A stretch of DNA of 64,000 bases from Heterotrichella gracilis (taxonomy: Eukaryota; Sar; Xanthophyceae; Tribonematales; Xanthonemataceae), in NCBI GenBank assembly GCA_032358255.1, contig JAULBX010003999.1, positions 1-64,000 of the forward strand, read 5' to 3'. Below are positions 1-64,000 of this stretch, piece by piece. Both the position numbers and the translations under genes were made by a program. Under the pieces are notes generated by a model. The model was given only the letters and a program-made list of their open reading frames with translations, searched no databases and had not been told where the DNA came from. The number at the start of each line of letters is the position of its first letter. Within the stretch, counting starts at the first letter, position 1.

Positions 1-2991
1 GCGGCGGGCGCGGCGCGGGCGGCGGGCGGCAGAAACGGCGGCGGCGGCGGCGGCGCGTCGTCATCGGAATCCTCCTCGGTGTTGTTGGCAAACTCCGCGG
101 AGAGCACCGGCGGCGGCTGGGACCGGGTCACAGGCCGCGGAGGGGGTGAAGGGGGTCCAGCTGCCCTTGCTGCTTGTTGTGGAGGCTGGCTAGGTGCGTG
201 GGAGGGGGTGATGGGTGGGTTGGGTTTGGGTCCCTCCCCTGTAGGGTTCCTTTGCCCTTTCTTCCCTGGCAGGTTGCCCTTCTGCAGGGCCTGGAGCTCC
301 TCCATGGTGAGGATGGTCTCCGCTTGGCTGTCGAATATCTCGTCCACCTTGCCCTCGTCCACCATGTCCTGCATCTCCTGCACCAAGGGGGTGACACACG
401 TTGGGGCACATTAAAATCGCTTTTTGAAACCACATTGAAGCCACGATTGCCTTGGCCAATCCCATGTGCATGCACCATGTGACCGCATTCGGTCTTTTTA
501 CCACGATCAGCTTAAAATTTCGGCTTCCTTAAAAACCCCACAAGCACATGCCGGTAGTAATCAACAACACTACAGGAGGGCACTATCGCCAATGCATCCA
601 ACAACAGGCCTCCACATGTATTCCTGCATTGCCCGCACCTTCATTTTCTTCTGCGCCTCTGCAGCTATCATCTCCTGGATGTCTGGCAGGTCATTGGTGG
701 CCCTGCCGCTCTCCTCCCACATCTCACGGGAGGGATTCTTGCGGGTGCGCTGGGACTGCAAAGGAAAGAGGAAAACCCTTCAAGTTTTTGCGGGTGCAGT
801 GAGACTGCAAGAGAGGATGCCGTGCTGGGGTAAAATAGTTTTCGGGAACATGGCCAATGTGAAGGGTCCTTAGCATTTTGAGGGGATGATGAGCATTTAC
901 AGAGGGGATGATAAGCATTGACATATCATTGGATCCGTACATCATGTACCCCTAATATGGTTAAGAGAATCGCAGAGGCACAACATACTCCTTTTCTGAA
1001 ACCCTACCTTGACTGCTTCCGCCAACACCATCCCCCAGCACCCTGTCCCCAGCATCTCCATATAACCCCACATGCCTACATGGGAATCCCAAGCCCTACA
1101 TAAACCCTGGCCAACAACCCTACCTTGACTGCTTCCGCCAGCACCTCCCCCAGCACCCTGCCCCCAACATCCTCTATGGACCCCTCACCCCATTTCAGGC
1201 CCCTCCATGTAATCCTAACCCTACATGCAACCCTACGCCCTTCCCAAAAGCCTACCTTGACTGCTTCCGCCAGCACCTCCCCCAGCACCCTGGCCCCATC
1301 CTCCTCCATGGCCACAGCGATGCACACCGGGGGCAGCCCAGACTCCTCGAGCAGCTCAACTAGGGCAGCCTGGGCTTGGATGCTGCGGTAAGGGGGTGGG
1401 TGGATTGGATGGGGTAGGTGCAGGGGAGGTGTGTTGGCGCTGCTATGTAGAGATTGGGGGGATGTGGTGCTGGTGGTGGGGGCAAGCGATACCGTGTGTA
1501 GGGTAATGTGTCTGGTAGGATAAGCATGGGTACAATAGGGTAGAGGCGGGGCGCATCCACCACTAGTTTGCGGTTGAGTAGGAGGTGCAGCAAGTGACAT
1601 CCATGCCGGGCGAATTAGGATGCTGCTCTGGGCACGATGAGCAGTCATTGTGTACACTGCCTTTGTATATAATCCTTTCATGCCCAACTGTATGGGAGGT
1701 ATTCACATACAATATCGTGTCAGAGGGTCTGATCGGGCCATTGCCAAGCCTCGCCAACCATGCAGGGTTGCCAGGCTGCCACTAAAACCCCACGCTAGCG
1801 TCTTTGGGTTGCCCCCACCACCTACCTCATCCCCGAAAACAGCATGGTGCGGTTGGATCCCCAGCCGCCGCCCCTGATCCAGTCCCCGGGACGCGGCGAC
1901 TCCCAGTCGGGTTCTGGGGATTCCAGCGCCTGGTCCAGGGTTTGGTACAGCAGCTGTTGCGAGCAGGGGACCACCTTGATGGCCTGGCCACCTGCGGAGT
2001 CGAGTATGATGCGCACCATGGCTAGCTCCTCTGCTCGGAAACCCGCCAGCACCACCGCCTGCGGGAGGAAAATAAAACATTTTTTTATTAGATAAAAATA
2101 GGAGAGCAAATGGGTTATTCAATGTATTCTTTATTTATGCGCGCCATGGCAAGCTTTTTGGCTTGGACCCCGGCCAGCATAACCACCTGCTAGTGGGCGG
2201 CTGGGGTATTTTGGAGGGTGGGCGGCAAGCTTATACGGTGTGGTCTTGATAGCAGCCACAAAATGCATACACACGCCAGGACACCATATGCATGCATACA
2301 TGTGACGCAAACAAAACACGCATGCACGCACAACGTTGTGCAGTATATAATCCTAAATCCGAAAAGGCCTGATAAACATTTTTCGCTGAGTGCTGCACTT
2401 ATTTGTATTCAGCGCCCATTATGCATGCATATGCGATGGGCAGCCGACACATGCCGTGGAAAAAGGATGCGAGAAAAAGCGATTGCCTCCCCCTGCTATG
2501 CAAACAACCCATACCTCTGGCCCATACAGTTCCTGGTTCTCTATGTCGTCCATCAGGAACTGGGGCGTGTTTTCTCCCGTGGAGAACAGGTCCTCCAGCT
2601 TGAGGTCGTCCCCCAAGGGGTCGATGTCGTCGGCAGAGAAGCCTAGCTGCGCGTTGTACTCGTCCTCGTCCAGCCCCATCTCCTTATAGTACGCCTCGTC
2701 CAGACGGATGCTATCGAAGTCAGGGTTTTCCGGCTGCTCATCCTCGTCATCCTCGGGGTGGTGGGGTTCCGTCACATGCTCGACAGGCGGCTGGCTGGCA
2801 GGGGTGGGATCGAACCCCGGCCCGCTGTGCGCCGCGAGGCGCACCACGAAGCGGCGATGCCGTGGGCCAAGTGCGTGCTGGAGGTGTGGCAGGACGCCGC
2901 CCTGGTGCGATGGTTTGATTGGGCGCTGGCTAGTACTGCACGGCACAGAAAGGTGCCGTGCCACATGCATGCTAGCCAGCCCAGTCTGCAT
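1..2991 (-). CDS. Unrecognised acidic, probably plastid-targeted protein (3' end beyond window)
   Basis: Five exons join in frame: 2515-2991, 1826-2058, 1256-1382, 639-755 and 1-377; the last stays open to the window edge, so the C-terminus is missing. The ATG at 2991 opens a basic, Ser/His/Arg-rich stretch ending RRFVVRLAA, which resembles a chloroplast transit peptide (inference). A very acidic segment (runs such as PEDDEDEQPENPDFD and DEDEYNAQLGFSADD) follows. The middle exons encode an alternating hydrophobic domain starting AVVLAGFRAEELAMVRIIL and continuing LVELLEESGLPPVCIAVAM. It faintly recalls the small DUF3783-type domain of plastid/bacterial proteins, but I would not rely on that. 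The last exon is a charged helix (EMQDMVDEGKVDEIFDSQ) running into a long Pro/Ala/Gln-rich tail with seven consecutive prolines. Function unknown. Introns hold copies of the exon 2 and exon 3 edges. Confidence 0.72.
1002..1312 (+). repeat. Three tandem copies of the exon 3 donor edge, acidic-protein gene
   Basis: Copies begin near 1002 and 1118; the functional edge is at 1251-1312. Each has CCTACCTTGACTGCTTCCGC followed by Cys/Pro-coding-like CCCAGCACCCTG. Spacing is 116 and about 133 bp, and the copies lie in the intron after the exon. Confidence 0.9.
2136..2195 (+). repeat. Degenerate copy of the exon 2 acceptor side
   Basis: Resembles 2006-2065 (GCGCGCCATGGCAAGC versus GCGCACCATGGCTAGC, then GGCCAGCATAACCACCTGC versus CGCCAGCACCACCGCCTGC). 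It lies in the intron upstream of exon 2. Confidence 0.8.
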
Positions 2992-4007
2992 AGTATTGAA
3001 GAATACAGACGGAGTAACCCCGCTGTATCGACAGAAGGCTAATGCTTTGAACTAGCCTACGGAACGCTGTTTTGCACAACTGTGGTTGCAATGCTCACAG
3101 CCCCCCACACACAACCTGACCTACACCCCCGGACTGGTGGGCGAGAGCAACAGCGTTGCGTTCCTATAATAAAATGAACAGTAAGACATATTAGGGGTAT
3201 GTTTGCTGTATGCGGAACCACCAAGCTTTGACCTCAAACTTTGAGCGAGGTTCCTGGAAAACAAAACCTTTTTCCTTCCGTTTTTACGTCGATTTTACTT
3301 TGAAAAGCGTCATAATTTCCACCGAACCCCTGCTAAGATGAAGAGCAAACCTTGTGGGCCACAGGTGGGTGACAGGGAAGACACATTCACCGTGGCCCAC
3401 CTCAGTTGTCCAGCACTTTGTGCCAACAGTTAACATGTAATTATAATTCGCATTGTCTGTGATGATCACCTCCCCACGTCTGTGACATCAAGTGCGTTGT
3501 GCTGTTGTGACAAGACAGTCTCACCCAGAGTCTGGAGCGCTACCCACCCAGTAACCAGCTGGAGCATGTATTACACCCCATATACCATGCACGCCACCGC
3601 CTGAATCCTATGCAGTTAACCACTGTAACCAATCCACATGCAACAATCCACCTGGTCCACAACTGCACCTTTAGACCAGGGCACCTCGCTGTCCCCGAGA
3701 CACTGTTCTCCTCCTCCCCTCCGAACCCCTCACATATTCTTCCCCTTCCCCAACGCAACACCAACCCACACCCCATTAATACCCCCCCCCCCCCCCTTCT
3801 CCCAGTGCACACACACACAGCGCTACCCTGGCCAATCAGGGCCAAAACCCTGTGGCCGGGTGTAGTGTGACCCTTTAGCAGAGTTTGTGCAATATCCCCT
3901 AGGTAAGGCTTCCACCCCCGAGACACCTCAGTATCCCCAGTGCCCGCAGTATCCCCAGCTGGTCAGCTCCAACCCAAGCCACTGATCCAGGGTTTCCCAC
4001 CCCCTGC
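2992..4007. other. Intergenic: upstream of the acidic-protein gene and 3' UTR of the Snu114 gene
   Basis: Both flanking genes are on the minus strand. The right part should be the 3' UTR of the Snu114 gene; the left part should hold the promoter of the acidic-protein gene. A 15-base C run lies at 3782-3796. The small open frames here have no recognisable product and no splice-consistent partners. Confidence 0.6.
3571..3575 (-). terminator. Candidate polyadenylation signal TGTAA for the Snu114 gene
   Basis: TGTAA, the usual chlorophycean poly(A) signal, reads on the minus strand about 430 bp after the stop. This is a plausible 3' UTR length for such algae, but the motif is short and could be chance. 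Confidence 0.35.
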
Positions 4008-7000
4008 TCACAGTATCTGCTGCAGGTCTGCATCCTGCCTGGCCAACTCCAGGAGCATGGGGTCGTCGAAGAACTTATTGATGCTCACGTCGTCGCTCAT
4101 ACCCTGCGCATGGTTTGAGACACGGGTCAGGTGGTGGTGGCGTGGTGGTTGGGAAGGGGCGGTTGCAATGGGCAACATCATGCTGCGCCAAGCCGCAATT
4201 TCCAAGCGTCCAAGGTACATCTCAAAACCCAAAGAGGTTTGAAAGCAATGTTCACAGGCACCAGGATGGTCGTCAGGGGCGGTAGTACCTCCGTGGCTCC
4301 CAGGATGCCAACCATGCTCATCACAGTATGGAACAAAATTTGATGTGTCATGTTGTGTGCGCACTCGGGACACACCCTTTGGCATGCATTTTGTTCCACC
4401 CCCCAAACGTTCCAGCCAACCTTTTGCATTGTTGGGCGTTGGCCATAAACTCGCACCAAAGTAACACACCACACATCCAGGCACACCGCCCAAAACCCGC
4501 TGCCCGCACCTTGCGCCGCCGCGTCTTGACCATGAACTCCCTGGCCAGCACGTTCATGGGCGCAGGCTCCAGGCCGGCGCAGCACATCTTAAAAACCCTC
4601 GCACCCTACCCCCAAACCCTCCTTTCGCCAACACGCCTTCACCGCATACCACCCGCAACCACGTCTTCACAACCCTTAAACCTAAGCCCGCTTCCCAAAA
4701 CCTCTGCCCCCACCTTGCGCCGCCGCGTCTTGACCATGAACTCCCTGGCAAGCACGTTCATGGGTGCAGGCTCCAGCGGGCGCAGCACGATGCTCTTGTC
4801 CAGCGGGTCACCCGGCACAATCTGCCAGTGGTCAAACACAGACTGACAGAAGGCCTGGCCCTGTGGGGGTGGTGGGGAGGTGGGGTGGGGTGAGGGGTGG
4901 GTAATTTGGGTGGTGCGGGGTGTGGATGTTTTGAGTGTGGTGTGTTTAGTGGAAGACGTGTGCTGGTGGGTTTTGCTGGGTTGGGTGGGGTGCTGTGAGG
5001 GGAGGCGCAATCAAGCCATGTAACATTGACTGCACTCTAGAAATCCATGCATTTGCCAAGCTGCAGTGCCAGTGCAGGTTAAGGTACAGATTTGCGTGAA
5101 CCAAGCACCTGGTTAAGATGCGTATACCCTAATCAGGTCCAAGTTTTCACAAAGGTAAATAGGTTACCTGCGTGTGGTAGCGCAGATCTGTCTCAAAGCC
5201 AAAGCTCTCCACCACTGGCAGAAAGCACCTGACCAGGAAGATGGGCGTGCCTGGTTTGGGCAGGTCCTGGGTCACGTGGCCTCGCCGCTTGGACAGCACG
5301 TTGTAGATGGCGGTGATGCAATCTGGAAGGGGGGGTGATCAGCTCATGAGGGGCGTACGGGGTGTATCAAAGATGCAGATGGTGCAATTCACTGCGAGCC
5401 ACGTGCCACGGGCGGCCATGTCCAGGACTTATAACCTCCCAAATCCTCATGCCCAAAAACCCTAACCATCAAATCGCAGAGTCTAGTATCCCCGCGAAGT
5501 ACACAGGCTCCACAAGACGGAAGGTAGGATGGAACCCCAGCCCCAAACCCTTATAACACACACAAACCCTCTAAAACCTACCTGCCGGCGTCTGGATCTC
5601 CACGTAGTACACTGGCTCCATGAGGCGGGGTGTGGCCATGAGGAAGGCGGAGTAGCACACGCGGCGGGCGGTGGGGATGACCTGCCCCCCCCCTCGGTGC
5701 AGCGGCTCGGGCGCAATGGCGGCATCCAGGATCTTGAACTTGACGTTCCGGATGGGTTCGTCGCACAGCGGGCCCTCCCGCGTGCCCCATTGGAAGCCCT
5801 GCGGGTAGGGTGGGGTGGGAGGGAGGTGCATATACCAAGTTCGCATTTCCCTTGGTTTCAAGAAAAATCAAAAAATTAGAAAGTATTATTTCGAATGGGT
5901 TCTATGCCACCCACGCTCAAATCCAACCATTCTGTGCATTGCAGCAACATTCAAAGCCACTTGGCAGCAACATTTACACCCACATGGGCCCCCGGAGCAC
6001 ACAGCACCCCCCCACGACCCATACTCAACAGCAAAACCCTAACTCAACCCTAAAACCCTACCCACCTGCACAATGGACTCGCGCACCGCCCCCAGCAGGC
6101 CCTTGTCCACCTCAGCAGGCAGGGTGTCATCCAGCAAAATGTTGGGACCCGCCCGTTCGGGCCCAAATGCCCACACGCTCCGCGCCGCCAGCAGATCCCA
6201 GTCGTACTTTGACTGGAAGAAGTCGCCCAGGCGCTTGCGAGGCCACTCGATCCTGACTGCGCCACCCTCGATGTCCTCGGCAAGACCCTAAACGAGGGTT
6301 TTAAGGGGGTTACGGGGGGAAGAAAACCCCTAGGGGAGGGTTTGGGGTGGCGCTGTACAGGTCTGGGGCCAGAGGAGCAAAGTATGCTTTGACAATAGTG
6401 GTGGAGGGTCTTTTCTGCCAGGTTTCTAGCACAATGCCATGTGGGCTCATCCTCAAATATCAAGGTAATTTTGCCCTAAATGTATTGATGTTACGTTAGG
6501 TATGAATGACTCCACCCCATTCCCCACCCCTCACCTTCTCCAGCGGCTCCGCGATCATGGTGATCTTGTTGCGCTTGTTGGGCGTCTCAGCAAAGCACTT
6601 TAGCGAGGAGGTCTCCACCACAGTCTCGCAGAACGACACCACTGGGTCGGCGACCTTGACCTCAACCTCGGCATACAGCTCCCGCAGGTCCTGTGGGGTG
6701 TTTATTTATTTTAAATGATACATGACGACGATGTTATTTTCAACTACCTTTGAACAAAGCAAGAATCCGTGTGAAGATCAATGCTATATAGAGATGTATG
6801 GGGAAATAGTGGTGTAGTCAAAACCTGGCCGCACCTTTATGAGTGAGGTCAGGTACACCCTTGTGCCCAGGGAAGCATTTTTATAAAAGCGATGTACTAA
6901 CAACAATGCATGTAACAATAACAAACCGGGAAACATCGATAACTAAACGGTGCCTAGTTTGTTTTAGAGCCATGCCACAAAGAAAGCTGCACCTTCATGA

Positions 7001-10000
7001 GCGAGTCCAGGTAGACCTCCCCTGTGCCCAGCATGTAATGGATAAAGATTTACACGTATGTACAATTATTTATATCGAATTCGCTGACGATACACAGGAC
7101 CATTGACAAAGAAGCTGCCCGCACCTTCATGAGCGAGTCCAGGTAGACCTCCCCTGTGCCCAGGATTGTGTGCTCCCCTGACTCCTCCACCTTGGTCACT
7201 GCAAGGGGGTAGCTCTTGTTGATCTTGCGCAGGCCCTCAACCATCTTGGGCAGCTCGCTGGGGTTGAGCGGCTCAGTGGCGATCTTCATCACGCTCTGGG
7301 TCTGGAAGGTCAGCGGCCTGGAAGTGACAAGTAACCAAGTATAAGAAATGTACATAAAAAAAAAAAAAAAAAAAAAAACATTATATTATTGAGTAGTTTC
7401 ATCATCTTATCATGCTATGGGTCTGGACGATGAGCGGCATGGAGGGGAAGGCGCGGAAGGGATAAAGCCTCTGTTGCCACAGCATCACCCGCATGAAAAC
7501 AAATAATCATTGACGCATAAGCATTGACAAAGCCAGCCACAGGCATGCAAGAGCAGGCCTGTGCCCTGAACGCACAGGAGAGCACCAGCCCCACCTGAAT
7601 ATGTACAGGTCCTCCTCAAAGAACTCCGGCACCAGCGTGGCTGTCTTTGTGATGGTGGCGTCCACCCCTTGGAGCAGCACCCAGTTGCCAGCCACCGCCT
7701 TGGTCAGGGGAATCCTGCATGGGGAGAGATGTGTGTCTGGGGGGGTTGTTACATGTATACAATCCACTGGGGATGTAAAAAGGCATGATGGCGATACTGG
7801 TGGCGCTACATGGACACAATGGATCAGGCCATTGGTGGTGTTTTGCATGGAGGCCAAGCCTAAATGAGGGTTGTACACTATGGCCCCCAAACCTCCCGGC
7901 TACCCCACACAGAAATGCGCACCTGTATCTGGCCTGGTAGGTCCACACGTTGGTCACCTCAGCCACACACGAATCCTCCTCGTCGTCGGGCGAGTAGGCC
8001 TCACCTAGCACGCGCACCTGCAGCCATGCGGGGTATAAATTCAATTTCAAGTCCACATATTGTTCCAACATATCCCTATGTCCCAGCAGCAAAGCGAAAG
8101 GGTTGGCCACCCTACACCCATCCCACAAATAAGTGTCTGCGGGCAGAGTATCGTATTGACTTCTCATAACCCCAGGAACTGGCATTGATTTGGTACAAAG
8201 AGGGTGGTCCCCGCCTTCCATCGCCATCCATACACAGGCAACACACACCGCAAACACAAGACACAAAGCAGTCTACCAGCTTACCTTGTCCCCTGGCTTC
8301 ACGGTGCCCGACAGTATCCTGCCGAACGCGTCGAAGCCCGATGCGTCTGTCTTTGGGAACAGCTTGCACACGTAGATCATGATGGGGCCGCGCGGATTGC
8401 ACGCCTTCATGTGCGCAACAACTTCGCCATCCTGGGGGCCCGTGTAGCACCGCTCAACCTGGGAAGGGGGGGGAGGAGTGTGTCAATTAGGAGGAAGATG
8501 GGCGTGCATGCACGCTGGGGATAGCAGATGTGTGCATCTTATGATTTTTTGTCCTGGGTCTTGGTTGCTGTGTGGGTGACCTAGACCCTAAACCTTGAAC
8601 CCTAAAACCTATTGGTCATGTAATGTGGTCGTGTGATGACCTCCGCCACAGGCGGGAATCAGCCCACTACCGCTTTTCCCCCGGAAGCCCTCCACAACGC
8701 TATGCCTCACACCATCCTGCTTCTTTCACCAAGCACCTGCAATGATCACCCCATCTCCAAACCCCACCACCCACTTCACTGCCCCACCTTCTTGGCCGCA
8801 ACAACCTTGGAGGAGGGCAGGTGCCTGGCACTTACATCCTCAAGGGAACTGTGGGCGATGCCGAACATTATTGCGCAGCCTCCTTAGGGAAGCTTCTGCC
8901 ATCCCCGCCACCCCCACCCCGTTCCCACTCCCAATCACCCATCACCCCCTCCCATCCACCCAGCAATTTCCACACACCACACCGCGCCCACCTTCTTGGC
9001 AGTGGCCACCTGAAGGGCAGGTGCCTAGCCACCATTCAGCGATGTCTGTGGCGCTGCCAAAGATCTTGGCGCATGCCTCCTCAAACGAGCACCTTGCCAT
9101 TCACCTAACCCCACTCCCACTTCCCATCACACCCACCCAGCAACTCCCCCCACATCCCCCCACGCACCTTCTTGGCAGTGGCCACCTTTGAGGAGGGCAG
9201 GTGCCTGGCCACCATGTCCGCAATGCCTGTGGCGCTGCCAAAGATCTTGGCGCATGCCTCCTTGAGCAGCGCCTTGACATCCATGCCGTAGGATGAGGGC
9301 TTGAGCCACACGCCCAGGTCGTCCATCATGCCCTTGATGGAGGCGTCGTGCTCACCCAGGACCTGCAGTTGTAGCAATCAGGGTTTAGGGCTTAGGGCTT
9401 AGGGTCAGTGTGAGGGTTGAGTTAGGGCACCTGTCCAGCGGTGTGCCGCAGCCACCACCATCCGCCACCAAACATCTGCAACCCCCCTCCGTCACCCATT
9501 CAGCCACCATCCGTGCTTAAATTACCATGCCGCCGCCTTACATGCGAGTGACTCTCCAGAGGGCCCGCATGCAGGTAAGCCAGTGCGGCCAACTAGGTGG
9601 CAAAGTGTGCATACGTTGGGCTACACTCCACACGCCAGTCTCAACGGGGTCACCACACCCACCACCCAGCCAGCGCCCCAGCGCCACCCACCTGGCTGTA
9701 AATCTTGTACAGCGGCTCCAGAATGAACTCCACAAAGGAGCGCTTGGGCGACTCGGCATCCAGAGGGGCCTTTTTCCTGAACACCCGGGTGTCGGGGTGG
9801 AAATACATGTCCCCCCACAGCCGCCGCGCAAACTCGCGGTGGTCCACTTGTGCCCCATACACCTGGCAGTACATCTTGGCAAAGGACTGGAGCGTGAACG
9901 ACCACCCGTACTGTGCAGCCACGAAGGCCACGTTGCCCGCCAAGGGGTCCAGCTGCGGGTGGGGGAATGGGGGGTTAAGGCCGGGGGTGGGGTGGATGGA

Positions 10001-13000
10001 GGGGTGGGGGGGGTGCGGTAAGGGGGTATGAGGTGCATGCGGAAACGCGGGAAAAAAGCGGGGCGGTATGGGTAGGGGATTGTGCGCCAACCGATGTTGC
10101 AGTTGCAGGTCAGTTGTCCAGCGGTCACAGCAACTGCAGCACCAATTTAACTTTGAACACACTGGTTTGATGTAGAGGGGCACACCAAGGTTTTCTTAGG
10201 GTTCTCACGCACCAGAGGCATCTCCTCCCCTCCCGCGTACGTCTCAATGAGGCCGTTGACCTCGTCGATTGTGTGCCGCAGCTTGAAGTATGCGTCCGTG
10301 GGGGGCAGCTTGAGCTCGGTGATGAGCCGGTCAACCTGGGGCCAGGGGTATAGGATGTTTATATAGTTAATGAAATGATTTTTATGATGACGAGGAGCAT
10401 GCTTATATTCATCAGGATTGACGGTGACAAGCACGACGCAATGCATGGACCCATATGCATCTCCCAAGCAGAGCGACTCCCAACCCAGGGATTCATGCAA
10501 AAGCTTGCGCTACACATAGAAAGAACAAGACACGTGACATGCAGCACCCCACCTTTGACAGCACCAGCACGATGGCCAGACCCTCGCTTAGGGCTTGCCT
10601 GATGGCCCGGTCTGTGGCCACCATCACCCCCTCCACCGCATCCACCACCAGCACCACACCGTCAGACATGCGCATGGCGGCAGACACCTCGTCGTTGAAG
10701 TTGACGTGGCCTGGGGTGGGGGAGGGGAACATCTAAAGGGTCATGGGTGCACGATGAGGGTGTTCAGAGGTTAGAAGATGCAACCCCTACCCCCCTTCTC
10801 CAGCATCAACAGACATGGGGCAGGCATTGAGCCTTGACACGCAGCCCACCCCACCCCACCGGCCCACAGGACACCCACCACAGCCTCACAGCCTTCATAA
10901 ACACACCACCACCACCCCACACCCCGCCCCTCCACCCACCTGGCGTGTCAAACAGGTTGACCAGGAACGACTTCCCGCTGTCGGTCTCCAGCACCAGCGA
11001 CATGGGGCAGGCCTTGAGGCTGATGCCGCGCGCCTGCTCATCCAGCCGGGTGTCTGTGAAGCGCATGGGCTTCTCGTTGGAACGCACCTCGTGCCGGACC
11101 TCGTGCGTCTGCTCGATCAGCATGTCAACAAGCTGCGAGGGGGGGTATACGGGAAGACGTTAGGGGTTAGGATTTAGGGTTTGGCGCATGCCTCGATGCA
11201 GGGCAGGAACCCTCTCCCACAGGCCTCCCTTCCTCATTGCCCCGTCACCCCGTCGCCTCCACATGGATTTGCCGCGGAGCATGTGGCCAACCACTGCCAC
11301 AATTGGTGGATGATGCAGGTTTTCAGGTCCCCCCCCACCCCCCAATGCCCGCAGCCACCCATTTTGGTCTTTGCTGTAGTGCAGTTGGCCCACCACCAGC
11401 ACAATACAGCACTCCACATGCGGGTAATCTCCCCCACAAAAACCACCACACAAATCCCATACCCCACACCCCCTGCCACCCACCATGGTCTTCCCGTGGT
11501 GCAGGTGCCCCACAATTGCCACGTTGCGGACCAAGTCGGGTGTGGCGGACAGGCCTGCCAGGAACTCGTTGGAGTAGGCGGAGGGAAGCGGCTGGCGCTC
11601 AAGTACCTCGATCTGCCGGTGCTTCACAGGGGCGATGATGGGGACCTGGGGGCAGGGGTGGGTGAATGTGCAGGGTGGGTGATGTGTGTGTGTGGTGTGG
11701 AGGGGGTTCTTTGTGGTAGTGGGGTGCTTCTGAGGGTGGAGTGGTTGCGTGTGGGTTAATTGAGTAGGAGGAGGTTTCGATATGCAACGTTTTGGGGACT
11801 GGTGTGGAGTGGGTGCAGGCAAGTGAGGGGGACGGCGATGCGTGCCCCTGCCCTGGCCTGCGCAGTACCCACATAGCTTGCACCTCCCCACCGCCATGCA
11901 CAGGTGGCACACGCCACTACCCCGCGCCTTAACCACTCCCATGGTTCTTGCAAGACTTGCGGCCGGTTTCTCACCATCATCCTTTGCAAAAATGTCTGTG
12001 CAAAAGAAAGGTGCACCTTTATGCCATCTTTGTGTTTGCCACCAACACATGCCAGTGAACCACCATCCCCGCTCATCCCACCACCGCCACCGCACCCGCC
12101 CCCAAGCACCATCCCTTGCTGGCACACCCCAAAGCTTTGTGCTGCAGTGTGCAGTCCCACCACCCACCACCATCCACCCACCACCATGCCACCCACCTCC
12201 AACGGTTGTGCGTCCTCATCCATGACCAGCGCCTCGGTTTCCTTGCCAAAGGTCTCCTCAGCAGTCGGGTAGTACTTCTTGTCCTCCTGCAAAGCAAAGA
12301 GAAATGTGAGCAAAAAAAAACATAGGCGCCTCATCGCGACGCAAGCATGAGACTGGTGGGTTGAAGAGACCAAGTGAGAGTTGCTGGGCACTACGCCACA
12401 CGTCCCTCCCATTGTTGCTTGAGACAGGGGCTGCACATAAGGCATAGGGCTCAAGTCCAAAATTTAAAGATCCCACCTGGAGCACGATTGAGGTCCCGGG
12501 TTCCTCCTCCTCTTCCTCATCTTCTAGCCCGGCGGTGGCATGGAAGCGGGCGTTGGCCCGCTCCTCGGCATCTTCCATATCCTCATCTTCGTCATCCTCG
12601 TCTAGTACCCCCTCCTGCTCCTCCTCCTCTTCCTCCTCGTCCTGTTCAAGGGGTGTTGCATAATGAGGGGGTGATGGCGTGCATGGGAGGGTGGTGGGTG
12701 AGGGAGCGGGGGCTGGTTATAAGGGTGGGGCCGGTGCATGGAAGTTGCTGGTAGTGGGAAGGAGGGGTGAAGGGGAGAGGTATCAAAAATTTGCTTATGC
12801 TGTACAGTAAGAAGGTGGAAAATCGGTGCATATTATGCAGATGCTGTCATATGCACGTTCACACATGCATGCATATAGCCACACACACCCTTCCACCCAC
12901 AAACTAGGCGCTGGAACTTTTACACAAGGAACCCATTATTAGTGCTGTCATGTGTAACTACCGCTGCATCCGCATACCTCCTCCTCGTCTGAAAGGTCTG

Positions 13001-33529: not shown

Positions 33530-37759
<4,230 letters not shown>

Positions 37760-50490: not shown

Positions 50491-50516
50491 GTAATAATAA
50501 TAATAATAATAATAAT
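50491..50516 (+). repeat. TAA microsatellite
   Basis: Eight to nine ATA/TAA units in the intergenic region. Confidence 0.95.
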
Positions 50517-50698
50517 TACATGTGGCAGGCAGGATCTCGGTGATTACCAAAGGCATTCACCACAAACCGTTTGTGGTGAACTGAGGAATGCCACTGTGAC
50601 AGCCGGTCAGCTGCCTGCAACACTGCATGATGCGCTTCACCAAAGGTATCCCTTTTTACAGCTGCATGTCTTGATCCACTCCGTTGAAGTACCGGTAG

Positions 50699-50808
50699 TT
50701 AGCGAGCTGGTCGATCGGAATGCTAATAATATGTTGACAAAAGGTAATTAGCGAGCTGGTACAATGGGACCATTATGGGACACTAATAGTATGTTGACAG
50801 AAGGTAAA
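50699..50808 (+). repeat. Two-unit direct repeat
   Basis: TTAGCGAGCTGGT and CTAATANTATGTTGACANAAGG occur in the same order twice, about 50-55 bp apart. Confidence 0.85.
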
Positions 50809-51098
50809 CATATGCGAATACACTTGCTTGGCGTTGAACTTCATACTACTTTGTAAGACTTGTACAGCCAAAGCTGGTCCACTTGAACCATCACCAATCT
50901 ACCTGGGCAGAGGCATCAGATGACGAATCTTGTTCTCTCTTATAACATAAACGTTCCTTAACAATATGTCGATCACCGTATATGCTACGATCATTGATCG
51001 TGTTACCTCACCGTGTACTTTTCCCACCCTTGACAAATGTCTACAATATATTCTGCATCACTCACGCATATTGCTGCGTTGATCAATGAGCCACCCGT

Positions 51099-53966: not shown

Positions 53967-56900
53967 TCAGTATGAGGTTTGCGTCGCGTTGTCTGCCTTG
54001 GCATACGTTGGAGTGCCTGCCCCCGCAGTACACTTTGCATCCTGCAGCAAAGGGGTGGTTACATGAATAGATGTGAGCCACGGGCGATTATGGAGTACTT
54101 TCCGCTGCCGTTGGGAGAAAAGTGCTGTAGAAAAACATACTGAAATGCACTTTGGGAATTTGATATACCCTTAGTGTCATGTTTCCGGGAATTTGCTATT
54201 ATTGTACCACTTTTGTGTTTGGCTTCATGGCAGTGGTCTCACCTCCAAGAGTATCCTCCCTCCATCAGCAAACAGCTTCAAAATGTTCTCGCTCTCAAAG
54301 TAGTGCTTGAAGCGCGGCTGGCCGGTCTGGTCCATACTGCCCTTGTAAAACTCCAGCCTGTCAGCCGCGTTCTTCAACACCCCGCTGTGCCACTTGAAGT
54401 GAAAGACCTGCACGCCAAACAAAGGGCTGGGCAAGGGCAGCGACATCAGAGCTAAATGAACTACTTGATTACAAACAGTCAGGCCTTGGCCACTTCAAAG
54501 GCTTGCCTGACCATGGCTACTCCTGTGACCACTGGTGCACCCTTCCTGCTTCCCTTCTAACCGGATGCAAGCAACAAAGAATATCAAACAATTTGCCCTT
54601 TCAGCCCCTGTCAACATGTATTTGTGATGAGCCAATGGGATGGTACAGCATGAACACAGTGGCAAGTTGGCACGGGAATTGCATCCACTTGGGGGTATTA
54701 TCCCCACCTTTAGGACCTGTGGGTACCGCAGCATCTGCCATTGCCCAGGCTCAGTCCTTGACGTCTTGTACTTGTACCGAGACTTATACTTGTAGTAGGG
54801 CGTTAATCTGTACAGGTCAGCCGCCCCGTAGAACCCTCCCCTGCAGCATGCCAAAAAAGGGGTGGGGACCAGCCAGACAGCGCACAAAACCATCGCTTCC
54901 CACCAACATTTTGCAAAATATCTTCTTTGTGCCTGACAGCAATAACAGAATTGATTGCATAACGATGCACTCATAACCCATAAGGAAAAAAGAGGTCGCT
55001 GTCCCCGGTGCTAGTCATGCGAGCATCTGACCCGCTTGCGTCAGCATGGCACTGGCACCAATACCAATATGTACCGTGTGGGACCAAGCGCACACCAAGG
55101 GGGTCCCCTCCTCTGATTCAATCGCCAGAATACATGTCTCTAACTAATTACGCAAAATGCCAGCAAAAAGCTGGGAGGCAGTGGCATTGTACTCTGCGCA
55201 CACAGCCACCCGCTGAGGTTTAGCTGTCATGCGTGCCTTTCAGGTGGCTTGATCATTGGCATTGCGGTAGTACCAAGCAAGCCGCATGTGGTATGGTATG
55301 TGGTATGGTATGTGGTATGGCATGTGGTATGGCAGTGATTGCTGCTTTAGGGTTGCCACTTTGACACAATGTCCCACCTGCGATTTGGCTGGTCGCGCTT
55401 CGCAGCCCCAAAGTAAGCCTTGGCGGTGTCTGGTTCGACAATGTAGTGGTTGCCTGTGTTGGATCGCAGGTATGCCTTGAAGGCGGTGGTCTTCCAGATG
55501 TAGCCGCCCGTCAGCTGCTTTACCACCAGGCAGTCGAGGGGAAACTGGCCCCATATGTCCACATCTGCAGTGGGTTTCAGCGTACTGTTATCAATCTGTT
55601 ACCTAGAATTATCAAAATAACACAAAGTTTTGCCAGCGACCTTCTAGCTCCGCCATTGTCATTCAGAACGTTCTTAAGTTCAGAAATTTGATCAGAAAAC
55701 AGGTTCAAATGTTTGCACAAATTGCGGATGGTTTCCCGCACACCAGATAAATATTGCACAATTCCCTGCCACTGAGTGCTGCCCCGGCAAGTCTTGCACC
55801 ATTGCTGAACCTGGCAATGGAAGGGTTGTGCAGTTTTCCATTTTGACCAGGGCCACCTCAGCCGAAGAACCATCAGAACACTGATGCCATGGTAAGAATG
55901 AGGCACCTGGTCCCCCTCTTTCAAACCTACCATCAGCGAGAACAAGGCATCGATTCTCCTCCCCTCCCCACCCCTCCGCCAACCCCACATACCTGGCTGC
56001 AGCGCTGGCAAGCCACCGTCCCCAGCCACCCTGTCCACCAGCGACCCCAGGATCCAGCTTGACTTCATCTGGTCTGCCCGGGCCACCACCTCCTGAATGG
56101 TGGGCGCAACCTCGGTGAAGTTGTAGAACTCATCGGCGTCAGCGATGACGATCCAGTCCTCGGGCCAGGTCACCTCGGCCTCCAGGTACTGCAGCTTGAT
56201 CTGCACCAAGGATGGATTGTGAGTAATAGTATGATTATGATTATGAGTGTAACAATGGATTATGACTCTCACTGCCATTTTCAGGCCATGTCACCTCGGC
56301 CTCCAGGTACTGCAGCTTGATCTGCACCAAGCGTGGAGCATGAGTATGATTGTGAACATGATTGTGATTGTGAACATGATTGTGAACATGATTATGATTG
56401 TTAACATGATTAAGATTGTGAACATGATTGTGATTGTGAACATGATTGTGATGCCGGTGTGAGGGTAATTATGATCATGGCTGTGGCTCTCGCAATGATC
56501 CTCTGGCGGGGTCGCCTCAGCCTCCAGGTATTGCAGCCTGATCTGACCACCGAGTGCATATTGCAAGTCCAATTATCGACGGCTTCAAGCTGGGCACCAT
56601 CTTATGCCAGACCTTTGTGGTGGTGGGGATATAAAGGGAAAAAATAAAGAGAATATGTTGTGGCCTTGTGTAATGAACTAGGTTCCAATCCTGACAGTGA
56701 AGAAGGGCAAAAGCAACGCACGAAATGTGCATGGCATTATGGAAAAAATCAACAATCTCAGCTCTGCCCTACGAATGCAATCACGTGTGATGTTCATGTC
56801 ATATGCGGCATGAAATGCAGAATGGCGCTGCTGTTGCCATTACTGTAGCCAACCATAGGGCAAGTACCTTGAGGTGGGCGTCCGAGGAGTACCTCTCCGT

Positions 56901-57893
56901 CCACACATAGTAGGGTATGTCGTGGTCGCTGAGCGTGCGCACAATCTTGCTGAACTCGTCCTTGGCCTCGGGCGCGGTGCAGTTGTGGTTCACCACCACC
57001 AGCATGTTCTCTGTGCTAAACCCCAAATTGAGGTAGTGCTGCAGCCAGAAGGGGAGCATGGTGGCTGCCCCCTGGTAATCCGCCCCGATGAGGGTGTACA
57101 GCCAGATGCGGGGGGACCCGGGGGGCGGGCTGCTGGGGTCGAAATCCTCCTCGTCGTCGTCCCAGTGCCGGTGCCGCTTGGGCTTGAAGCCCTCGTTGAG
57201 CCTGGAGCGCACCCTGACGGGCGGGGGCAGCGTCTTTTGGCGCCTGGTGAGGTAGGATAGGATCCCCGTTGGGGGTGGTTTCCTGTCCCCGAGAATTACC
57301 ACTTTGGTGGCTGTGCCCGTGCCCTTGACTGGCACATAGAGGTCTGCCATGTCTACCTTGTGCACCCGCTTGTGCTTCATGAGGTGCTTGGCCTTGGGGG
57401 GCCTGCGTGCCATGGCATAGGGATTAGGGTTCCGTCTTAGGGTTTTAGGATTGGTGTTTGCCACCTGTGTACCATTGGAGGCTTTGATGCACAGTGGATA
57501 GCTTTGTACGGGAAGAACCAACCAGCCAATTGCGTGTAGGTATTGTCCAACCCACTTGGTGGTGGCACCGCCCTTGCTCCTATACATGGCTGATAAAGAT
57601 GAAACGTTTATTATAAACCATCTAAGCGCTCTTTGCGCCCAATCGACTTAAAAAGCGCTTGACCCCCCATTATAATAGAACAATATTTAAGTTTTTACTC
57701 TCGCAACCCACCTGGTGGCGGCACTGCCCCTGCTCCTCAGGTAGCTGAGCACCAGCGGCGCCACCACCATGCTGCACACTTGGAGTATGAGCAGCAACAC
57801 CAGGCAGCGCGTGATGTTCCACTTGCCCCTCAGCTGTGGCTTGGGGGCCTTCGCAGGCGAGGGGAAGCTGCCCTGGGAGCCCGAGCGCTTCAT
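53967..57893 (-). CDS. Type II membrane glycosyltransferase (GT2-like / GT92-like, DxD)
   Basis: Seven exons give 494 aa: 57712-57893, 56868-57402, 55993-56200, 55378-55564, 54708-54840, 54243-54407, 53967-54041. A short basic cytosolic tail (MKRSGSQGSFPSPAKAPKPQ) precedes a signal anchor at about 30-52 (CLVLLLILQVCSMVVAPLVL), then a basic, Pro-rich stem. The catalytic part begins LYTLIGADYQGAATMLPFWL and has MLVVVNHNCTAPEA, LEAEVTWPEDWIVIADADEF with the DxD motif Asp260-Ala-Asp262, and later VVKQLTGGYIWKTTAFKAYL and VFHFKWHSGVLKNAADRLEF. This layout is that of Golgi glycosyltransferases that recruit nucleotide sugars through a metal at DxD; donor and acceptor are unknown. An in-frame ATG at 58031 would add 46 residues and is an alternative start. 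Introns contain copies of the exon 1 donor and exon 3 acceptor. Confidence 0.88.
55283..55335 (+). repeat. TGTGGTATGG minisatellite
   Basis: About four copies of a 10-11 bp unit inside glycosyltransferase intron 4, close to the exon 4 donor. Confidence 0.92.
56160..56545 (+). repeat. Three copies of the glycosyltransferase exon 3 acceptor edge
   Basis: The true edge 56160-56211 is repeated nearly exactly at 56282-56332 (CACCTCGGCCTCCAGGTACT) and less well at 56500-56545. A GATTGTGAACAT simple repeat fills the gap between the second and third copies. Confidence 0.92.
56340..56452 (+). repeat. GATTGTGAACAT simple repeat
   Basis: Imperfect 6/12-bp units between two exon-edge copies in glycosyltransferase intron 2. 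Confidence 0.92.
57553..57745 (+). repeat. Copy of the glycosyltransferase exon 1 donor edge
   Basis: 57547-57588 resembles 57705-57742 (CCACCTGGTGGCGGCACTGC versus CCACTTGGTGGTGGCACCGC). Confidence 0.82.
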
Positions 57894-59551: not shown

Positions 59552-62500
59552 CTACGAATCGCGCTTGAAAGTACTCCCTCCTAGCTTGATCTTGAAGCCA
59601 AATGGCTTCTTGGCAGCCGGCGGCGCCTCGGCGTTGGCATGGCCCGATGCGGCAGGCGGCGCAGGGCCTGCACGCGGCGGCGCACCCACGCCGCTGACAC
59701 CATCTGGCGCGGGCCGCTTCTGGCCGCACACCGCATCCCCCGGCTGGCCATCCCGCTGCATGGGCATCGCACCGGCTGGCGGCGGAGGCGCTGCGGGCAT
59801 GGGCTCGGAGGTACTGCCGGCAGTGGCGAGCACCTGGGGCGGTGCAGCAGCGGCAGGCAGCGCCGTTGATGTGCTCTCTGCAGTGGCCAGCGCCGGCAGC
59901 GGGGCAGGCGCGGCGCCCGCCATGTGGCGGGGCACGGCGGGCGGCGGCATGCTGCCTGGGGCTGGTGCGGCATTGCCGGCGGCGGCTGCAGGTGCGGCGG
60001 CGGGCGCGGATTGGGTGTGCGCTGACGTGGCGCCATCCAGCACCGCCACGTCACTGGCTACCCTGCCAAGTGCCGCCCCCTCGGAGGTGCTAGGGTTGTA
60101 GCTAGGGTCCCGCCCGTTGTCCTCATCGTCCAGCACCACGTTCACGCCTGCGCCATAAGAAGCATGGGGTCAAGTGCATACAGCTTAGGCTGACAAGTAA
60201 TGTGGCTGTACTGCATGCACTATAATGCATGCATTAGTCCCTGCACTACAGCTTGCAGATTAGTATGTATTCAAACGAATATCCTTAGGATTTGAGTCAG
60301 GGTGCATGATGTGCTCCGCTGGACCCACTGCAGGCCTAGCCATGCGCAGCCCGTTACCCAACAGATACCCTTCTCATCCCCATGAATGTACCCCACGCAC
60401 ATGTCCCCATGGCAAACCCAGCGCGTGCCCCACGTACCCACGACCTCCTCCTCTGTGTCGTCGTCCTCCTCCCCCCCCTTGCCCCCCGCCACCTCTTCCT
60501 CCTCCTCCTCCTCCTCCCGCTGGCTACTACTGGGCCCAGCCATCTCAGACAAGCTGGCCATGCTGGGCAGCGCGGCGGGCGCGGCGGCGGGGGCGGCGGT
60601 GCCCGGGTGCCTGCCATGGGGATGGAAAACCTTAAGCAAGGACTCCTTGGTTGAACCAAATATGCATGCATATAATGAACAGCACCATTTTACATCGTTT
60701 TATGCTTAAATATGACAGGACCAAACTTGGTTTAGCCAGCCAAAAAAAAACCAACTCGCATTTGGATGGACCACATTCGGCCCCTGGCGCAGAACACACA
60801 CACACACACACACACTACATTAATGGAGACTGCCTCCACCATGAGCAAAATCAGCGAAATCCACACCCCTGGATATACATGATTCAACACGATCAATACC
60901 CACTCACTTGGGCGGCCTGCCCCTCCTGCGCGGCGGCTTCTTCTCCTGCTTTGCCTTCTGCAGCCAGTGCACGGGCTGGGTGGCCTCGGAGAGCATGCCT
61001 GATGGCGGCTGCGAGGGGCGCGCCTTGGTGGTGCTGGCCACTGCCTCGGACAGCTGCTCGGGGGTGAAGGACAGCCAGTCGGGGATGTCGCTCACGTCTG
61101 TAGGTTAGGGAAGAGGAAAAGGGGTGGGTTGAGGTGGAGGTGGGGGGGAGGTGGGTAGGTGTGCGAGTGGGGTGGAGACCAGTGACGTGCAACATGTGTG
61201 TGGATGGGTGGGCGCCAGAAGGGGGCGGGTGGCGATGTGGTCATCCGATGCCTAGCAGACATCCCCCCACCCCTAAACTCTAAACCATCTAGGGGTGGAT
61301 GGTGCTGGTTTAGGCTATGCAGACCATTTAAACAGCACATCCCCTCCCAAACACACTTTCCCGCCACAGCAAAAGCGCAGCCACGAGAACACACCGCCAG
61401 GGCACCCTCCTCACCCACCTGCCAGCGGTCGCGGCCATGGGTACTCCCTGTCCAGCCTGTTGAACAGCTCCAGCTCCTCGGGGGTGCGGGCAAGCTGCGC
61501 GTTCAGCTCCTCCATGGTGGGGGGCGTGTTCTCGGCGCGCTTCAGCCGCTCCTCGTCCTGCAGGAGGTCAAGGAGGTGTGGGTATGTGGGTGGGTATGAG
61601 TGCGGGTGTGAACCAAGGGGCCCTGCGCTGAGCCTACCAGCCGCCTCCCCACATCATGCAGCCACCACTATTGACCCGGCCGCCACCACCACCCAGCTGC
61701 TGTCACGTCATCTACCCGCCGCCATCCACTCCACCTGCAGTTTATACCTGCAGCAGAGTCTCCACCGTCTGCTTACCATCCCAACCCCCACATCATGCAG
61801 CCCTTGACACACCCCTCCCCACCACCTCTCCCCACCACCACCCACCTGCAGCAGGGTCTCCAGCGTCTGCTTGCGCTCCTCCATGGATGTCTGCATGTCA
61901 AACCTGCCGGCATCAATCACCTCATTGGCCATGTCAATCTTCATCTTCTGGATGTTGTTGCGCACAAGGGACTCAACGCTGTCGCCATACAGCGCAGCGG
62001 GGGGGGCGGGGGGGGCCTGCAGGTGGGGTTGGACAGTTGCTGGGAACGATGGGGGGAAGACAACAAGGGTGTGTGTGTGTAAGCGCATTATCAAGGTGCA
62101 TTGGTCTTGCCCGGTATTGGGACTACATCAGCACTAATTGTGTACCAAACACCCACGAATGATCCAACCTACATAAGGGGTAGCGTAATCACCCCACAGG
62201 AACATGCCACTCCGAACCCACCCACCCACCCATCAGCACAACCACCCACCTGCTGCTCCCCAGCCCCCTCCGCCCCCTCCACAACCGCAGGCGCCGGCGC
62301 CGCCCCCTCCGCCACCCCGCCGTCCCCCCGCCACCCCGCCGCAGCCACCACCGACTCCAGGTGGATGACCCGCACTTCGCGCTTCTGGCCGATGCGGTGC
62401 GAGCGCGCGATGGCCTGCTCCTCGTTCTTTGGGTTGGGGTCTGGGTCGTAGATGATGACGGTGTCCGAGGTCTGCAGGTTGAGGCCCCGCCCCGCTGCGC

Positions 62501-64000
62501 GTATTGACAGCAGGAAGATGAAGGCGTCGGAGCCGGGGGCGTTAAACTGCTGGATGGCGGTCTCCCTGCGGGGCAGGATTTCTGTTCAACACATGTTCCC
62601 CGAGGTTGATGTGGATTCATTTGGTGGCTTAGGGTAGTGCATGTGCAGCCTGAAAGTGGTTTAGGGTAATGCGATGTACAGCATGAAAGTGGTTTAGGGT
62701 AATGCGATGTACAGCATGATGGTGCACAGCAGGAAGATTGAAGGCATCTCACCCAGGCTCACCAAATTGCTACAAGGCAATCATATGTACCTCCCGCATG
62801 ATGGAGAGCAATGGTCAGAATATGCAGCACCAACAACACCCATCACCCCCCACCCCACCCCACCCCAGTCCCCACCTGTCCTCCAGCGCCGTTGACCCGT
62901 CGATCCGCAGGTACTTCATCTGCACCCCGTCCGGCAGCGTGCGCCACTTGAGGTACACCTCCATCAGGTCAAGCAGACGCGTCATGGTGGAGAACAGGAG
63001 CACCTGGGGCAGCCAAAGGGAACTTATTTCTGGGTTCACATGGGTTAAAGTTGAAGATCTGGCACTCGCCAGGCGGGGTAGGACGCAGGCGTGCACGGCT
63101 GTGGCCATTGTCAGGGAAATGCATGTTCCAAATTGGGAAACGCATGGTACCGCAAACTGTGTGGCACATGAGCATGACCCATAATACTGCAGACTGTATG
63201 GCACACATGAGCAGGGACCGTAAATGTAAATGATACATGGGCAGGGGCTGTAATTGTACATGTCACGTGCGCACCTTGTGTCCCGATGCGCGCAGCTTGA
63301 CCAGCACCCTGTCCAGCACCCACAGCTTGCCGCATGACCTGACCAGGAACTCGCCTTCGTCGCCGCCAATGAACTCGGGCGGGTAGCACAGGTAGGGGTG
63401 GTTGCACACCTGGAAGGGGCGATGGGTGGGTTAGGTGAGTTGCAGAGAAAAGCGATTGATTGCTGAGCCAGTCGCCGGTTTACTAAACATACGGTCTTGC
63501 CGATGCTGCCATTCCACCAAGTCGTTTCGGCCATGCCTCTTCCCTCTTGCTAATCCAAAACAGGCATTTGTATATGCATGCATGCGCATGTGTCACCACC
63601 GGCAAACCCTAAACCCTAAACCATAACACTACATCCCCCAAAACCCACCACCCGCCCACCTTGCGCAGCTCCATGACCTTGTTGTTGAGGGGTGCAAAGT
63701 CCCTGTGCGCCTTGCCCCGCATGGGCCCGTAGGGGTCCAGGCGCAGCGTGGCGGTTGCCTTGACCCACTGGTATATCACCCCTTGGTAGGCGGACAGGGG
63801 GACCTTGAGGATGACGGGGACCTGAGGGGGAAAAAGGCAGAAGGAGATGGTTTAGTTAGTATTCTCCCGCATCACTACTTCAATTGCTGCCCATTTGGCC
63901 AGAAAAAATAGGGGATGGATAGGACGGGGGAATGGACACGATCAATTATTACTTTAAGGTGGCTGTATCTAGTTGTGAGGTGTATGAACAGATATAGCCA
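59552..64000 (-). CDS. SWI2/SNF2-class chromatin remodelling ATPase (BRM/SNF2-like), C-terminal part
   Basis: ATP-dependent nucleosome remodeller of the SWI/SNF class. Visible exons: 63660-63821, 63275-63409, 62876-63003, 62250-62565, 61846-62016, 61419-61557, 60908-61097, 60438-60610, 59552-60147 (669 aa, one frame). The N-terminus and helicase lobe 1 lie beyond the right edge. Lobe 2 is clear: [98 protein letters not shown] and motif [23 protein letters not shown] SnAC domain follows ([40 protein letters not shown]), which separates SWI2/SNF2 from ISWI and CHD. Then come an AT-hook (RRRGRPPK), an acidic Glu run and a long Ala/Pro-rich tail ending [16 protein letters not shown]. No bromodomain is visible. 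An unusual Ala/Gly-rich linker sits between lobe 2 and SnAC. Confidence 0.94.
60794..60815 (+). repeat. CA dinucleotide microsatellite
   Basis: About ten CA units in a remodeller intron. Confidence 0.95.
61728..61885 (+). repeat. Copy of a remodeller exon donor edge (SnAC exon)
   Basis: 61733-61780 resembles 61840-61885 (CTGCAGCAGNGTCTCCANCG). A second nearby duplication of CCACATCATGCAGCC occurs at 61649 and 61787. Confidence 0.78.
62632..62750 (+). repeat. Short tandem repeat plus exon copy in a remodeller intron
   Basis: A unit of about 40 bp (GTGGTTTAGGGTAATGCGAT) occurs twice with a partial third. The following ACAGCAGGAAGATTGAAGGC copies exon sequence at 62505-62526. TTTAGGG is part of the unit. 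Confidence 0.8.
63603..63623 (+). repeat. Telomere-like tract CCCTAAA
   Basis: Two to three units shortly downstream of the donor of the remodeller exon ending at 63660. Confidence 0.85.

Follow-up and report, generated by a model that had tools for sequence, protein, structure and literature searches.

Introduction

Repair of staggered double-strand breaks was reportedly described in new introns of Daphnia by Li et al. in 2009. Here we report direct copies of exon edges, including the splice site, that lie within the adjacent introns of the xanthophyte Heterotrichella gracilis; we call such copies echoes. They were noticed in a stretch of 64,000 nucleotides (the window; GenBank assembly GCA_032358255.1, contig JAULBX010003999.1, positions 1 to 64,000 of the forward strand). 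In the accessible passages of the Daphnia study, repeats of 4 to 12 bp common to a neointron and the adjacent exon are ascribed to staggered breaks and growth to repeated breaks, and internal repeats are also found in 100 of 617 established introns (PMC4202315). The two systems are alike in their direct repeats by intron edges, inserted filler and repeated events that lengthen introns (PMC4202315). However, the units in H. gracilis are 23 to 111 bp long, span the splice site of an intron already present and accompany a mostly telomeric filler, whereas the Daphnia repeats mark the birth of an intron. Direct target duplication flanking filler, as expected of staggered-break repair, is present here; random breaks would be expected to be untied to gene structure (an expectation and not a strictly defining feature), whereas the copies described here are enriched at exon edges.

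The interstitial telomeric repeats of mammals have been ascribed to insertion by telomerase at double-strand breaks, sometimes with target duplication, which the horse paper attributes to staggered breaks. In the available parts of these papers, pure duplications are a minor class (6 of 130 rodent, 4 of 25 primate and 3 of 66 horse loci), and 31% of the human repeats are intronic, as for random insertion (PMC2246262, PMC7215372). H. gracilis shares the short internal telomere repeats, sometimes with target duplication, but its telomere runs lie predominantly in introns, near splice sites (128 of 149), and duplicated flanks occur at 40% of 179. As far as the consulted portions of their descriptions go, neither the Daphnia nor the mammalian system is exon-edge-specific (PMC4202315, PMC2246262, PMC7215372).

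Models of intron gain through tandem duplication and break repair have been reviewed (PMC3443670). As in the AGGT tandem duplication model, a duplicated splice site here feeds intron sequence (PMC3443670), but in that model a new intron arises between the AGGT copies, whereas here an intron that already exists becomes larger and the two copies stay on the same side of the splice site. Introners are likewise a genome-wide insertion process tied to introns, but they are families of similar elements that create introns (PMC9860276, excerpts), whereas here the inserted copy derives from the neighbouring exon. A 2025 survey, as excerpted, describes direct repeats of 4 to 30 bp near intron borders across life (PMC11782384), and 12 of 17 matching passages of an Auxenochlorella genome paper say nothing of telomere repeats in introns (PMC12633428). 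Exon-edge copies with telomeric filler were not found described in the literature searched, which consisted of titles and abstract openings among the matches listed and included few subscription journals. The patch-mediated tandem duplications of rice and the paired-nick duplications of Arabidopsis reportedly measure tens to hundreds of bases, come from paired nicks and carry filler; to our knowledge, they are neither exon-edge-directed nor telomeric. The parts are known, namely telomeric insertions at breaks and staggered-break intron growth; their combination and density appear to us to be new. A preliminary description of the window, which knew of no described system of this kind, went too far in view of these published relatives (PMC4202315, PMC2246262, PMC7215372).

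Exon edges are copied into adjacent introns

The window lies in contig 42 of an assembly of 68.5 Mb in 903 contigs. A further 25 samples of 10 kb were drawn, from which one that was bacterial-looking (L001) and one that was all N (L006) were excluded. The working set is thus the window and 23 other loci, 294 kb in total. Our gene finder converged on 266 introns with clean splice signals and yielded the consensus CAG/GTGNGT for donors and YYYCTGCAG/G for acceptors (slash, splice site). Pfam domains were detected in seven of eight window proteins submitted. In all samples, introns were G-rich just past donors and C-rich before acceptors, more so than in their middles. The excluded sample L001 belongs to contig C1 (894 kb, GC content 36%) and contains intron-free open reading frames that read as Bacteroidota-like; the contig seems bacterial, from a contaminant or companion in a seemingly non-axenic culture.

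Local repeats were detected by self-BLAST with a fixed score and a low-complexity filter, to which some long array pairs were lost. We observed 120 direct repeat pairs 40 to 600 bp apart, compared with none at offsets of 3000 to 3560 or 6000 to 6560 bp and with 2 inverted pairs within 600 bp. Self-BLAST of the window at E<1e-3 gave 29 direct repeats, 28 of them within 500 bp, and 1 inverted repeat. Among the 18 usable loci in the first sample, 11 had at least one close direct pair and 7 had none. An exon or exon edge on one side was paired with intron on the other in 84 of the 120 pairs, and 11 pairs were intron-intron. When an entropy filter replaced the low-complexity filter for the analysis of pair anatomy, 135 pairs were obtained; in 82, one copy held a splice site and its partner lay in that intron, which involved 55 of the 266 introns.

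For each edge, up to 60 bp of exon and 6 bp of intron were then searched for in the same intron, with a score of at least 36. An adjacent exon-edge copy was present in 60 of 259 introns: 19 of 78 testable introns in the window, in 11 genes, and 41 of 181 outside it. The preliminary description, with its at least twenty introns from nine or more genes, thus gave approximately the correct count, considering two further copies in the Snu114 gene that the gene finder read as mini-exons. Copies were found for 65 of 518 edges, at donors (40) as well as acceptors (25), as had been proposed. In contrast, mismatched introns gave 0 of 1554 and reverse-complement edges 1 of 518. The number of echoes varied among genes beyond expectation (p=0.011).

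The same kind of scan with a 300-bp target was used to compare locations. Copies were detected for 65 of 510 edges, 12 of 557 exon interiors, 28 of 585 intron interiors (some of which may be copies of echoes) and 6 of 1310 intergenic positions. The equal frequencies in exon interiors and intergenic DNA that the preliminary description had named as grounds for giving up its view were not found. Among copies at least 88% identical, the counts were 35 of 510, 3 of 557, 11 of 585 and 5 of 1310, respectively. The exon-edge echo is real, genome-wide and far beyond chance. If the sampled share holds, the genome would hold thousands of echo introns, a figure that is an extrapolation and not a measurement.

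Structure of the duplicated unit

In young pairs, the order is exon tail, splice site and a few intron bases, followed by a filler mostly unlike them, the same unit again and the remaining intron. Acceptor-side cases mirror this arrangement: there the copy precedes the real edge. The 20 pairs of at least 88% identity had offsets of 64 to 442 bp, 18 of them 64 to 189 bp, which agrees with the spacing of 80 to 200 bp first described. A gap of 25 to 153 bp, mostly unlike the unit, parted the copies in 18 of the 20; at L011:929 the spacer is itself an additional copy of the unit. With one event taken per edge at this identity, the median unit was 42 bp and the median gap 71 bp. The splice site is non-uniformly placed within the unit (median intron share 0.14; Kolmogorov-Smirnov [KS] test, p=0.0003, n=19), and young units typically stop a few bases into the intron (median 8 bp). 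In pairs below 80% identity the intronic part is often longer (median 85 bp), and many of these form arrays.

The best single case, at L039, is a perfect 56-bp duplication of 46 exonic and 10 intronic bases around a 41-bp telomere-like filler, TGTTGAGGGATTAGGGATTGTGGTTTAGGGTTTAGGGTTTT; the exon reads as a protein kinase exon, its name and edge being assigned by reading only. Two other kinds of repeat were encountered. An intergenic tandem duplication of 119 bp at L025:7762-8000 is 97.5% identical, almost abutting and devoid of telomeric filler, and is a duplication of another kind than those at exon edges. Introns at L003:7395 and L005:8493 (gene-sense coordinates), on different contigs, have ~60 bp in common at 78% identity that are not of low complexity and are possibly a small dispersed element.

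Most short fillers carry the telomere repeat of the genome

CCCTAAA-type heptamers were present in 19 of 24 fillers of 10 to 60 bp, and 263 of 862 filler bases were telomeric; these spacers are new relative to the preliminary description. Six contigs have (CCCTAAA)7 arrays within 200 bp of their start on the plus strand, and five have them within 280 bp of their end on the minus strand. Since the terminal arrays are in the proper orientation, TTTAGGG is the telomere of this genome, and the inserted repeat, the same in contig-end arrays and short fillers, is its own terminal telomere unit. An 18-base telomere word, AAACCCTAAACCCTAAAC, had 2076 matches in the genome, terminal arrays included, and the reversed word had none. 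Triple repeats of the TTTTAGGG type were found in only 9 places, compared with 834 for the TTTAGGG type. The genome encodes a TERT RNA-binding domain (PF12009).

Heptamers cover 3.7% of intron bases (0.65% for the reversed word), 0.76% of intergenic bases (0.53%) and 0.29% of exon bases (0.40%). The 149 telomere runs of at least 10 bp in the 294 kb comprise, besides the 128 intronic ones, 19 intergenic and 2 exonic runs, and the intronic runs lie at a median of 39.5 bp from a splice site, compared with 85 bp for random intron positions. Duplicated flanks were found at 40% of 179 runs, versus 0.9% of re-paired, 8.8% of random intron and 2.2% of random intergenic positions. A heptamer occurs in 50 of 60 echo introns and in 90 of 199 others, uncorrected for length. 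In gene sense, CCCTAAA was present in 38 and TTTAGGG in 37 of 247 donor windows, and in 42 and 5, respectively, of 247 acceptor windows. The bias at acceptors could be explained by selection, as TTTAGGG would introduce AG acceptors shortly before the genuine one. Throughout the genome, telomere words in the same orientation also repeat at 104 to 126 bp, the spacing of echo arrays, for example at C15:16522/16626/16737 and C7:3539/3665.

Copies decay neutrally in introns that are longer than others

Differences between exon and copy amounted to 0.098, 0.093 and 0.165 at codon positions 1, 2 and 3, respectively, and 16 of 60 copies had indels in the exon part. These observations indicate that the copy drifts neutrally while the exon is constrained, changing mainly at third positions. 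At 17 of 20 edges with several copies, the nearest copy had a higher identity than the farthest (Wilcoxon p=0.00085; 15 of 20 by score, p=0.04). When the best copy of every edge was considered, no trend of identity with distance was seen (Spearman -0.04, p=0.74). The earlier statement that copies worsen with distance therefore holds within multi-copy edges and fails across all edges.

Echo introns have a median length of 408 bp, compared with 294 bp for others. The signature of intron birth, like contexts at donor and acceptor in register, was seen in 0 of 259 introns; in 3 of 259 the contexts were alike out of register. The absence of a birth signature suggests that the process enlarges existing introns.

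Echoes mapped in the window

Spliceosomal Snu114 chains align with the Snu114 protein along its full length. Its best structural match is 8xi2_C, which we take to be a Chlamydomonas chain; together with the splice consensus, this match would point to a chlorophyte-like genome. A donor-side echo on the minus strand at 4489 to 4585 is 92.8% identical over 97 bp to the real copy at 4694 to 4788; it contains the segment 4507 to 4573, one of two examples named at the outset. The filler at 4586 to 4693 (not assigned to a strand), read directly, is unlike either copy and contains AAACCCT-like pieces. An array on the minus strand at 8767 to 9103 holds two decayed Snu114 edge copies, 72 to 75% identical to the real copy at ~9165 to 9263. 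Because the gene finder read ~4510 to 4566 (a 57-bp core) and ~8788 to 8838 as mini-exons, these two were not counted as echoes. Both mini-exons fall in gaps of the alignment with 8xi2_C, which as listed ends within the second. The segments at 4510 to 4566 and 8788 to 8838 are open in frame and have usable splice signals, and such in-frame echoes are possibly raw material for new or alternative exons. About 150 bp of intron at 4238 to 4389 match C398:213499-213647 at 78%, which would fit a dispersed repeat or a piece of a mobile element.

Further donor-side echoes on the minus strand lie at ~986 to 1061 and 1116 to 1179 (edge 1234 to 1309; 84% for 986 to 1061, and 79% for the array 1000 to 1179 against 1116 to 1311); at 6822 to 6871 (far, 79%) and 6977 to 7034 (near, 90%), with the edge at 7106 to 7166; in an array of about three copies with a period of ~105 bp at 35888 to 36201 (edge 36202 to 36255; 78 to 87%), interspersed with AAACCCTAAACCC; at 47849 to 47912 (edge 47938 to 47996; 74%), where 22 of 25 bases of the filler 47913 to 47937 are telomeric; at 48355 to 48402 (edge 48432 to 48479; 87.5%), where 14 of 29 bases of the filler 48403 to 48431 are telomeric; at 57548 to 57581 (edge 57704 to 57737; 88%); and at 61746 to 61774 (edge 61844 to 61872; 93%). 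Acceptor-side echoes on the same strand lie at 2137 to 2190 (edge 2009 to 2062; 76%; 50 bp exonic and 4 bp intronic), 7404 to 7443 (edge 7282 to 7322; 83%), 22097 to 22138 (edge 21982 to 22023; 83%), and, for the edge 56160 to 56254, at 56281 to 56376 (near, 83.3% over 96 bp) and 56499 to 56549 (far, 85%). The near copy corresponds to the second example named at the outset, 56282 to 56332, so that both examples are present. A microsatellite of 12/18 bp (CATGATTGTGAA-like) occupies 56339 to 56452, between the two echoes of this intron. An intronic copy of the exon segment 10985 to 11021 lies at 10797 to 10834 (87%), also on the minus strand.

On the plus strand, donor-side echoes lie in a decayed array at 15889 to 16032 (edge from 15806; 69% over 153 bp, period 83 bp); at 25673 to 25759 (edge 25559 to 25645; 84%; exon part 59 bp, intron part 28 bp), with a filler at 25646 to 25672 devoid of the telomere heptamer; at 31374 to 31423 (edge 31288 to 31337; 84%), with the telomeric filler TGAGCAAAAGGCGATTAGGGTTTAGGGTTTAGGTGG at 31338 to 31373 between edge and echo; and at 43975 to 44080, a mostly intronic unit copied from 43867 to 43971 (84% over 107 bp) and followed by a CCCTAAA run. 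Acceptor-side echoes on this strand are at 17845 to 17917 (edge 17940 to 18014; 83%), with a telomere heptamer in the filler 17918 to 17939, and at 28031 to 28070 and 28119 to 28181 (edge 28218 to 28279; 80% and 81%). An intronic copy of the exon segment 28382 to 28421 lies at 28473 to 28512 (85%). A gene-end duplication was also seen in an alpha/beta hydrolase gene, where 18551 to 18729, just past the stop codon, is a 77% copy of the last-exon region 18336 to 18524 that involves no splice site.

Probable break repair at exon-intron borders as a source of intron sequence

We consider it probable that existing introns lengthen from their ends inward through recurrent repair of breaks at the exon-intron border, in which a staggered break is filled in, receives a telomeric patch and is closed by end joining. 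The break would straddle the border with ends staggered by ~25 to 110 bases: the exonic end would lie ~10 to 75 bp away from the splice site, and the intronic end usually just a few bases past it. The staggered ends would be filled in, a short patch, usually TTTAGGG-like and either synthesized by telomerase or taken from a telomere, would be added, and the ends would be joined. The product would read exon edge with splice site, telomeric filler, and second exon edge with splice site. The outermost splice site would remain in use, so that filler and second copy turn intronic and drift neutrally, and a following event would again put the newest copy beside the exon. The concentration at splice sites is statistically clear and is not accounted for by this model. 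More tentatively, the process may be a mutational one directed to splice sites and involving telomerase or fragments of telomeres. Breaks or nicks would then form, or be repaired, preferentially at borders, and introns would grow outward from both splice sites genome-wide.

Several observations weigh against break repair at borders. The insertion step is inferred from structure: when the same genome was searched twice at the DNA level for an empty or second site, only the query place and partial matches (11 short and one of ~150 bp) came up. The gene models are predictions of a gene finder built for this analysis. No sequence motif was seen at 30 donor and 21 acceptor exon-side borders, which also speaks against a sequence-specific endonuclease, and G-rich tracts are poor candidates for break sites, the frequency of G after donor echoes being 0.272 (n=34) versus 0.314 at ordinary donors. 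Intron interiors (28 of 585) and untranslated-region (UTR)-like stretches (22 of 1060) exceed the intergenic level. Long introns give more room for echoes and telomere words, so that the greater length of echo introns and their higher content of telomere words are partly expected.

Five of the 24 short fillers lack the telomere heptamer, and the 179 telomere runs include loci picked by the telomere repeat. Of 16 places selected blind, by this repeat alone, 12 were intronic and only 5 had duplicated flanks (score of at least 30). A stricter spanning test gave 4 of the 16, compared with 305 of 1850 for random intron positions, a difference that by itself is not significant. Among intergenic telomere runs, duplicated flanks were seen at only 2 of 17, suggesting that such patches can also form, or persist, when nothing is duplicated.

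Alternative explanations

Tandem duplication blind to position could be followed by selection, with exonic duplications purged and edge-straddling ones visible longest through their conserved partner. Exon interiors are indeed depleted (12 of 557), decay is slowed roughly twofold by a conserved partner, some tandem arrays have long intronic parts, copies are found in intron interiors too (28 of 585), and any edge-straddling duplication yields the newest-nearest order. However, young copies (at least 88% identical), which should be about equally visible everywhere, are still found at 35 of 510 edges versus 5 of 1310 intergenic positions. The skewed splice site within the unit (median intron share 0.14; KS p=0.0003, n=19) is also unexpected for blind duplication, and the telomere heptamer occurs in only 3 of 17 gapped non-exonic pairs, all 3 intronic, versus 19 of 24 short edge fillers. 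We therefore regard this explanation as unlikely.

A break just inside the intron might instead be repaired by copying the nearby edge together with filler, through end joining of the polymerase-theta type or template switching. Filler and a copy of the flank are typical of such repair, which often copies both orientations. The final structure would be identical, and the intron-side border lies near the splice site in young pairs, which is in its favour. Nevertheless, copies run mostly into the exon and not equally into the intron (84 exon-intron pairs of 120, 11 intron-intron), units reach 23 to 111 bp with one 56-bp copy perfect (L039), and 2 inverted pairs stand against 120 direct ones. Templated insertion thus appears decidedly improbable to us.

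It is very improbable that a reverse transcriptase, telomerase or another, copies the edge of the nascent pre-mRNA into a break of the same intron. Such RNA-templated repair would account for the targeting of splice sites, the sense orientation and the small intronic extension (median 8 bp), and the telomere repeats alongside are themselves the product of a reverse transcriptase, but the same structures are explicable at the DNA level. We give equally little credence to the copies and telomere motifs being retained for a function, as splicing enhancers or as decoy or alternative exons. The acceptor motifs are mostly CCCTAAA in gene sense (42 versus 5 in 247 windows) and could serve as branch point and pyrimidine tract, and two Snu114 copies retain an open reading frame; however, copies drift as neutral DNA with indels in the exon part of 16 of 60, and purging of TTTAGGG explains the acceptor orientation equally well.

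The remaining candidates can be dealt with briefly. The preliminary description had proposed that an exon edge is duplicated and one copy absorbed into the intron, which is borne out and agrees with the greater length of echo introns (408 versus 294 bp). Plain replication slippage, which it also offered, does not stand as the main path and, without insertion, is unlikely for most young pairs because filler parts the copies: 18 of 20 have a gap of 25 to 153 bp, short spacers are telomeric in 19 of 24, and the intronic extension has a median of 8 bp. Targeting of whole exons with survivors at edges only is mildly disfavoured, as UTR-like stretches (22 of 1060, part of which may be due to unannotated UTR introns) exceed intergenic DNA (6 of 1310) but fall far short of edges (65 of 510). 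An assembly artefact is not supported, identities being graded from 69% to 100% with neutral-type changes and indels in the copies; intron birth by AGGT duplication has no in-register case among the 259 introns; and an introner family is at odds with similarity, telomere words masked, in 6 of 33411 intron pairs (E<=1e-3, low-complexity filter; longest 60 bp; 21 unfiltered).

Implications

About one-quarter of sampled introns carry ordered layers of exon edge, telomere patch, copy and sometimes an older copy. Intron growth is usually inferred from ancient remains; here its rate, direction and machinery are legible in a single genome and can be put to the test in strains. If the concentration at splice sites were confirmed in unselected mutations, DNA breakage or repair would be tied to splicing signals, and gene structure would have an unexpected contributor in telomerase. 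A splice-site-directed process, if true, would imply a physical coupling of splice-site recognition, or of co-transcriptional structure there, with DNA damage.

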